From contig NZ_CH672427.1 of the NCBI RefSeq assembly GCF_000153205.1, positions 2,024,541 through 2,088,540 on the forward strand: DNA of 64,000 bases, in the 5' to 3' direction. The DNA is from Nitrococcus mobilis Nb-231 (GTDB taxonomy: Bacteria; Pseudomonadota; Gammaproteobacteria; Nitrococcales; Nitrococcaceae). Numbering within the stretch: position 1 is the first letter of the stretch; each line of letters opens with the position of its first letter. The position numbers and the translations under genes were made by a program. Shown in pieces: positions 46,330 through 64,000 of this stretch. Under the pieces are notes generated by a model that was not told the origin of the DNA, ran no database searches, and saw nothing but the letters and a program-made list of their open reading frames with translations.

Positions 46330-46677
46330 CTAAGGCTCCTGCGACAGCCGTAGAGCCTCCTCGCGGCTATAGAAACGCCCCCCGTAGAGAAATCCGGCAA
46401 TCAATCCAGGCTTGGCTTCCAGCACGTGGCCGGCCTCATCGCGACTGACCACCAGCTCGTCCGGCAGTCCTTCGAGGCAGTGCACCGCAGCCAAGCGTCC
46501 ATCGGCTTGACATGAGGGATAAACAATATTCGTATCAGGATCCAGAAAAGCCGGGCGGAAGCCGTCCGAGCGGTTGCCCTCACTGACGGCTTTCGTTCCT
46601 TGATAGCGCCGGTTGTCCTGCAACAGACGAACAAGACTCAAGGGATAGATGCGGCCTGCGTCTGATCTCACACTCAT
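46330..46677 (-). CDS. Conserved hypothetical protein
   Basis: A 115-residue soluble protein starting MSVRSDAGRIYPLSLVRLLQ, without signal peptide or membrane segment. I do not recognise the family. It has a pattern DPDTNIVYPSCQADGRLAAV, then VHCLEGLPDELVVSRDEAGH, with two cysteines. The ATG has GGGAG 7 nt upstream, and codon use matches the genome, which supports a real gene. It lies between purU and ettA, with gaps on both sides. Confidence 0.6.
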   Translation of the reverse strand: MSVRSDAGRIYPLSLVRLLQDNRRYQGTKAVSEGNRSDGFRPAFLDPDTNIVYPSCQADGRLAAVHCLEGLPDELVVSRDEAGHVLEAKPGLIAGFLYGGRFYSREEALRLSQEP

Positions 46678-46984
46678 GATGCCACTCCCGTTGCGTCCCA
46701 TGCCGCCTCGAACAAGCCACCCATTGGGGCTGGGTCGCGGCCTCTTTTAATCGATTGCCGCCGATCCAACCACCGTGGTGGACCCAAAAGCGACACCTCC
46801 AGCTGATACCAAGCACCATATATGCCAATCTTGGCTAAATAATTATATATTTATATTTCAAATACTTACAAAAACACTTTCAGAGAAGGTCGAAAAAGTG
46901 TTCAAGAATCCGACACTGCGCGTCACTCGAACTGGTCGATTGGGCAAGTGCCGACTCAACATCACACGCCAGGGATGCGATCAA
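46678..46984. other. Intergenic region upstream of the hypothetical gene
   Basis: 307 bases. 46820-46875 is very AT-rich (TAAATAATTATATATTTATA), a likely promoter area for the minus-strand hypothetical gene. No RNA or repeat was recognised; no clear terminator for ettA was seen. Confidence 0.35.
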
Positions 46985-63343: not shown

Positions 63344-63380
63344 ACCGATTGCGCCGACCGGACCAATTGGAGCTAACCCG

Positions 63381-63419
63381 GAAGTTTCAGTGCGCCTTTC
63401 CACGGTGCACTGAAACTTC
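63381..63419. terminator. Hairpin after metH
   Basis: GAAGTTTCAGTGC (63381-63393) pairs perfectly with 63407-63419 over 13 bp with a 13-base loop, 38 bp after the metH stop. There is no T-run, so it may be a weak or Rho-assisted terminator or an RNA-stabilising stem. Confidence 0.45.
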
Positions 63420-63575
63420 TGGGCTAGGCAAAAGTCGCTGACCTGGGTATAAAGGAAAATGTGAGTCACGCTGTGCCAAGCAGCGCAGCATCATGCGTGT
63501 GTCCACAGCCGAGGGGATTGACGCGTCCGCAGCCTCGGTAGATGGATTTAATACCCACCAGTGGAGGAAAGAACA

Positions 63576-63743
63576 ATGGCCCGCCTCGCGATCAAAGACC
63601 TGCATGAGAACATCGAGCTCGATCAGAAGGCTATGAAGAACATTCGTGGAGGGGCCCGGGGGACGATGGGTGCCGGCGCTAGGGCGCGCACCTCAGTCCG
63701 GCCTCTGCGAACCTCGCTGCGGCGCCTTTTTCCAAACAAATAG
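63576..63743 (+). CDS. Double-glycine leader peptide, candidate RiPP/bacteriocin precursor
   Basis: A 55-residue peptide. Residues 1-26 read MARLAIKDLHENIELDQKAM then KNIRGG: an acidic amphipathic leader ending in Gly25-Gly26, the cut site of C39-type peptidase transporters. The 29-residue tail has no Cys, no acidic residue and seven Arg plus a C-terminal Lys, e.g. TSVRPLRTSLRRLFPNK. The ATG has GGAGG 8 nt upstream. A second gene with a similar leader begins 192 bp downstream. Family knowledge: short proteobacterial peptides with DL..N..LD..AM..I.GG leaders are thought to be exported or modified peptides, but I cannot name the class. Any processing enzyme would lie beyond the window. Confidence 0.7.
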   Translation: MARLAIKDLHENIELDQKAMKNIRGGARGTMGAGARARTSVRPLRTSLRRLFPNK

Positions 63744-63935
63744 CCCCGCCTAAGACACTCTATAACCAACGATCCGCCCGAACAACGGCGGTCGAGGTGA
63801 CGTGGCGCGCTAGCTAACCCGCGCAAAAAAACGGCAGGGGCCATTGATAACGCTTGCGAACACCTCCAAATTTGATGGTGGCATGCAACGTGTAATTACT
63901 CATGCAAGATCCATCAGTCCCGTCGGAGGTGAGGC

Positions 63936-64000
63936 ATGAGCCTGCTACTGGATGACCTGCCCAAGAATTCAGGGCTCGATCAGCTTGCTACCCACCACGC
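63936..64000 (+). CDS. Second leader-peptide gene (3' truncated by window)
   Basis: Only 21 full codons are visible: MSLLLDDLPKNSGLDQLATH and one further His. It shares the pattern DL..N..LDQ.A with the leader at 63576, spaced identically. GGAGG lies 8 nt before the ATG. It is probably a paralogous precursor or a related leader-bearing protein. Its tail, and whether a Gly-Gly follows, cannot be seen. Confidence 0.6.
   Translation, partial: MSLLLDDLPKNSGLDQLATHH

Follow-up and report, generated by a model that had tools for sequence, protein, structure and literature searches.

A double-glycine peptide precursor and a candidate HetC-like peptide-export system in Nitrococcus mobilis Nb-231

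The stretch of 64,000 nucleotides analyzed in this study (the window; G000:C1:2024541-2088540, where G000 denotes the source genome) ends with two small genes, here named P1 and ORF145, of which the second runs on past the window end, and an operon for an exporter follows downstream (Table 1). A long inverted repeat without a T run (AAGTTTCAGTGC...GCACTGAAACTT, window 63373-63427) is located just 3′ of metH; it is missing from the equivalent place in the sister species.

Table 1. Positions of the precursor gene P1, its neighbor ORF145 and the exporter operon, numbered from the first nucleotide of the window
Feature	Position	Strand	Basis or remark
Ribosome-binding site of P1, GGAGG	63563..63567	+	read directly
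P1 leader, 26 aa, MARLAIKDLHENIELDQKAMKNIRGG, predicted cleavage after Gly26	63576..63653	+	leader-family profile
P1 core, 29 aa, ARGTMGAGARARTSVRPLRTSLRRLFPNK, including stop codon	63654..63743	+	conserved in 3 Nitrococcus species
Start of ORF145, leader-like N-terminus without Gly-Gly	63936..64000, runs to window-equivalent 64373	+	sequence
Exporter operon	window-equivalent 68115-80475 = L003 6115-18475	-	4-16 kb past window end

P1 encodes 55 aa, leader and core in direct succession, with Gly-Gly at residues 25-26. A first-pass annotation of the window had described a small gene with a strong ribosome-binding site, Gly-Gly at this place and a Cys-free tail of 29 residues with a charge of about +8, and all of this was borne out, the computed net charge of the core being +8. 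Its description of the leader as acidic fails, because the leader has a net charge of +1. Before the Gly-Gly, hydrophobic residues are found at -4 (Ile), -7 (Met) and -12 (Leu), the positions that in the work on LahT150 occupy a hydrophobic groove of the C39 domain (PMC6363468); P1 thereby combines the Gly-Gly end and the three hydrophobic positions that define a double-glycine (PCAT) leader. The leader pattern occurred once in the window and in none of 40 shuffles of it. Between three Nitrococcus species, dN was 0.05-0.07 versus a dS of 0.24-0.42 for the whole gene, and 0.03-0.09 versus 0.43-0.59 for the core alone, which indicates purifying selection. Since selection constrains the sequence, with dN well below dS and the core included, P1 is supported as a coding gene, and the complete small gene at 63576-63743 is a real double-glycine precursor.

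ORF145 starts with an ATG at 63936, preceded by GGAGG at 63925-63929. The residues DL..N..LDQ.A, previously noted as shared with P1, are present, and on this locus the two adjacent genes had been taken for tandem precursors. This proposal had to be abandoned: read past the window end, ORF145 is a complete protein of 145 aa without the second Gly-Gly whose absence the annotation itself had named as an argument against its proposal, and it carries a full-length non-precursor domain. Genuine tandem precursors with the same leader occur about 16 kb downstream of P1 and in other genomes. The last ~105 residues of ORF145 correspond to a domain found in 44 of the 369 genomes of a class sample, mostly without an ORF145-type N-terminus; there is no Pfam entry for it, and by its sequence the C-terminal part can be classed as a widespread gammaproteobacterial small-protein domain. 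A paralogue without the leader-like N-terminus is located within the window (46330-46746, minus strand), and a third copy of the domain at G000:C1:2804015. Within the first ~20 residues, L8, L14, D15 and A18 are invariant, at the spacing that L9, L15, D16 and A19 have in the leaders described below. The copy in the genome G049 matched the leader profile weakly (E 8e-4; 1.8e-3 using the profile without P1), and the Nitrococcus copies gave no significant match to it; taken together, a leader-like N-terminus without a cleavage site is suggested. Two other Nitrococcus genomes carry ORF145 at 88-90% identity, and G049 at 51%. The P1-ORF145 pair is kept in four genomes and seemingly also in G029, with a second gene there that appears to have degenerated. 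The predicted structure of ORF145 (mean pLDDT 44) was too poor a model.

The DNA following the window, to which the first-pass annotation had pointed for export genes and additional precursors, contains both within ~17 kb: a C39-peptidase ABC transporter, HlyD and a TolC-like channel, and two further precursors with the same leader. The operon comprises these precursors (P2 and P3), a TolC/NodT-like channel, an FHA protein, HlyD, a PpiC/SurA-like isomerase, a cNMP/C39 peptidase/ABC protein of 1036 aa, a sigma-54 activator and a HEAT-repeat protein. The 1036-aa exporter consists of two cNMP stretches, a C39 peptidase (Pfam Peptidase_C39, 3e-41) and ABC domains, and its residues 319-1028, the C39-ABC part, align along PCAT1 (4ry2). 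The genome thereby contains a cognate C39-ABC exporter linked to the leader family, as is characteristic of PCAT systems. The genes of the export operon and the neighbors of P1 encode proteins of the transport, isomerase, FHA, regulator, porin or TerC types, and no modifying enzyme such as a LanM, radical-SAM or YcaO protein was recognized among them. P1 had been proposed as a RiPP, a substrate of a peptidase-transporter or a modifying enzyme; the peptidase-transporter part stands, and a RiPP in the strict (modified) sense is unsupported because no modifying enzyme was recognized at the locus. An immunity gene was not recognized either. In Nitrococcus and G049, a gene for a MinD/ParA-like ATPase (L003 18886-19665, plus strand; L049 4298-5050) adjoins the precursors, with 67% identity between the two and an FHA protein close by in both.

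Copies of this exporter operon with precursors nearby were found in G002, G004, G049, G656 and G722 as well as in Burkholderia stagnalis and two Caballeronia records, and in G248 exporter and precursors are located on separate contigs. Pairwise identity of the C39-ABC part was 67-68% for Caballeronia/Burkholderia and 44% for Nostoc sp. HK-01, one of the cyanobacterial exporters that are the closest relatives outside the Pseudomonadota among plasmid records and that in this strain is accompanied by HlyD and PpiC. More distant operons (L075-L078), with a sigma-54 activator and a C39-ABC protein at 34-36%, in most cases include PpiC, HlyD and FHA pieces and are without a leader of the P1 family.

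The leaders share the core motif DL-x5-LD-x2-A-x3-[IV]-x-GG. Searching the own genome with P1 alone gave weak matches, two of which head the downstream export operon. A profile of four leaders detected nine loci in G000, with a further eight, five and six in G002, G004 and G049, respectively, and later profiles extended the family to G248 and to two genomes of another family (f192); the same leaders are present in named Burkholderia and Caballeronia replicons. The leader family occurs in other Nitrococcus, in Ectothiorhodospiraceae and in Burkholderiaceae, and a profile excluding all P1 orthologues scored P1 with 42.9 bits (E 6.8e-12 versus 4643 N-termini). Its distribution is patchy, with 5/54 genomes of the order, 3/369 of the class sample and 3/398 of a phylum sample, counts that each include G000. 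The precursors tested fall outside all Pfam, NCBIfam and PHROG families, so the leader profile picks up precursors that these libraries miss. Membership of P1 in the radical-SAM leader family TIGR04149 was rejected (14.2 bits, E 0.03, below the curated cut-off of 25 bits). Five near-identical precursors, termed A-type, whose leaders have Ser at -7 where P1 has Met, are scattered far from the exporter (G000:C1 339995, 341669, 368659, 690286 and 700674; L053-L055), each with a sigma-54-type site ~90 nt upstream.

Leader family and exporter co-vary across genomes. PpiC was present in 7 of the 21 genomes tested, and no genome with several precursors falls outside these seven; within the genus, G001 and G003 have neither the leader family nor PpiC. 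A narrow-pattern PpiC scan of the genome contigs returned three loci only. Exceptions are G215, with the exporter and no leader match at the threshold used, and G029 and G256, which lack PpiC and have one leader match each. The P1 orthologue of G049 and the ORF145 that accompanies it directly adjoin the sigma-54 gene of the exporter operon; between the pair and the operon in Nitrococcus lie genes for an alginate-export-type porin, a TerC-family protein and other products. As P1 thus stands apart in Nitrococcus and lacks a sigma-54 site, its co-expression with the exporter is putative. Also, G000 has three other C39-domain loci, of which two encode short proteins, and P1 could therefore depend on a different exporter. 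Very probably, P1 is a substrate of the downstream C39 exporter. With leader homologues beside export genes in other genomes and further precursors bearing the same leader, the earlier assignments as a peptidase-transporter substrate and as a conserved leader with differing core proved right.

A total of 50 precursors was tabulated, and classes were split by the charge density of the core. The ten most basic cores have 29-47 aa and on average 6% Asn+Gln; the other 40 mostly have 53-74 aa, are near neutral and contain on average 18% Asn+Gln, with repeated Q-x-Q and N-N motifs. Cys occurs in only two of all cores. On this basis, the cargo comprises peptides of two classes: P1 belongs to the short ones rich in Arg/Lys, and P2, P3 and the scattered A-type to the longer, Asn/Gln-rich ones without charge, with a border that is not sharp because a few basic-type members (f192b_1, Bsta_1 and P4 of G002 and G004) fall on the non-basic side of the cut. 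Several loci combine one P1-like gene, with IKDL in the leader and a core starting with AR, with several Asn/Gln-rich genes. A curli-type amyloid was considered for the Asn/Gln-rich companions and rejected, since Pfam detected no curlin repeat: Curlin gave no match at E up to 10 among the exported cores scanned. The predicted structure of P2 (mean pLDDT 44) was too poor for showing a fold.

Sigma-54-type sites, which agree with the -24/-12 consensus (GG-N10-GC) in 9 or more of 12 positions, were found 40-109 nt upstream of 25 precursor genes versus 14 of 309 background ORFs; these 25 are related paralogues and not independent, yet drawn from five families. All six stand-alone P1-type genes are without such a site, and a consensus scan detected no sigma-70-type promoter before P1. 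Probably, P1 is expressed under conditions other than those of the Asn/Gln-rich genes, for whose regulation the sigma-54 activator encoded in the operon itself is the prime candidate. In both f192 genomes, genes for a PP2C phosphatase and a Ser/Thr kinase (L114 4278-5048, L116 7824-8600, L115 133-2385, L117 6559-8682) flank the exporter operon near the FHA protein, which may suggest control by phosphorylation.

From these data, we infer with considerable confidence that P1 is an unmodified double-glycine peptide which is cut and exported by a dedicated HetC-like peptidase ABC exporter. By analogy with LahT150 (PMC6363468), the P1 leader would dock on the C39 domain of the exporter and the peptidase would cut after Gly26. 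The basic 29-aa peptide would then exit via the ABC protein, the HlyD adaptor and the TolC-like channel, and the PpiC protein may assist folding or docking. One exporter would handle both the basic P1-type and the Asn/Gln-rich cargo, the genes of the latter being activated at sigma-54 promoters, for which the activator of the exporter operon is the probable regulator.

Concerning the extracellular function, we lean towards a secreted antagonistic peptide set, the evidence for preferring it to a structural role not being firm. Tentatively, the peptides may be unmodified bacteriocins similar to class II microcins, with P1 as a cationic membrane-active killer of competitors. The short core with a net charge of +8 agrees with this, as does the established exit of class II microcins, small double-glycine peptides, via C39/HlyD/TolC (see PMC9746304, PMC10233263). 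Comparable cyanobacterial clusters have been named bacteriocin clusters (PMC3140520), but they received this name from their sequence, no immunity gene was identified for P1, and the purifying selection on its core argues against a fast-changing toxin, although it does not exclude one.

Somewhat doubtful is the alternative that, with an unchanged export mechanism, the secreted set builds an extracellular structure. Here, the Asn/Gln-rich peptides would self-assemble on the cell surface into amyloid-like fibers or a matrix, and the basic P1-type peptide would be a minor part, such as an anchor, a nucleator or a bridge to DNA or to anionic polysaccharide. Consistent with such a structure are the two sharply distinct kinds of core that share one leader, the presence in each system of several Asn/Gln-rich genes and, as a rule, a single basic one, a P1 core that is conserved and not diversifying, and the uncharged, Cys-free, Q-x-Q/N-N-repeated composition of the non-basic cores; composition by itself is weak evidence, however, Pfam gave no match to curlin or another fiber family, and the P2 model is too poor to reveal a fold. 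An elaborated version, in which self-assembling Asn/Gln-rich peptides under sigma-54 control and a basic partner are secreted via the HetC-like exporter as a two-component system and ORF145, docked on the exporter, acts as a regulator or gatekeeper, appears unlikely. Still less probable is a role as signals sensed by neighboring cells, as proposed for HetC substrates in Nostoc: HetC is the nearest characterized exporter architecture (PMC10986499), but no receptor or two-component system was found with the locus, and many paralogous Asn/Gln-rich copies are unlike a single signal. A reading of P1 as a random ORF, or as a degraded precursor without product, is hardly credible, despite its position apart from the exporter and its lack of the sigma-54-type site of other precursors, given that orthologues occupy the same position in three species of Nitrococcus and in one other genus, a dN/dS of ~0.1-0.2 and the independent profile match.

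The export of P1 as an unmodified double-glycine peptide can be compared with several known systems. Class II microcins are unmodified small peptides with a Gly-Gly leader that use tripartite C39 ABC/HlyD/TolC export. The predicted P1 peptide and its exporter share these features; the leader differs by an additional conserved DL block and Ala at -8, and microcin-type immunity was not recognized. To the radical-SAM-modified RiPP leaders of TIGR04149 (GG_sam_targ_CFB), the P1 leader bears a weak resemblance, but unlike in those systems no radical-SAM enzyme was recognized at the Nitrococcus locus. Among open-licence papers, nothing relevant was found for Nitrococcus and bacteriocin, and for the exporter gene set only the HetC or cyanobacterial paper was retrieved, both being weak evidence of absence; in this literature, we found no earlier description of the leader family, the two-class cargo or the sigma-54 set. 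Substrates of long-type (HetC-like) exporters have so far mostly been guesses. Because exporter, leader family and sigma-54-type promoters form one readable group here, which spans a marine nitrite oxidizer and Burkholderiaceae, substrate, cleavage and function become directly testable.

HetC of Nostoc PCC 7120, a C39 ABC exporter that includes a cNMP domain, is required for cell differentiation, and the vicinity of hetC is without an identified Gly-Gly substrate gene (PMC10986499). The Nitrococcus exporter likewise joins a C39 peptidase and ABC domains to a cyclic-nucleotide-binding domain at the N-terminus; unlike HetC, it has two cNMP stretches and its putative substrates adjoin it. The putative bacteriocin clusters of cyanobacterial groups I, II and VI contain a long-type C39 ABC protein with CAP_ED, HlyD and a SurA-type rotamase (PMC3140520). 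The same combination of an N-terminal cNMP/CAP_ED C39-ABC protein, HlyD and a PpiC/SurA-type rotamase is found together in Nitrococcus, whose operon adds an FHA protein, a TolC-like channel and a sigma-54 activator, whose cores are Cys-free and of two classes, and whose leader differs from the published cyanobacterial consensus M[RK]EL-x3-E[IL]-x2-[IV]-x-G[GA] (PMC3140520). The Nitrococcus system would thus work like C39 double-glycine export with a gene set matching the cyanobacterial long type (PMC3140520; HetC, PMC10986499), and the locus as a whole looks like a real, undescribed peptide-secretion system.
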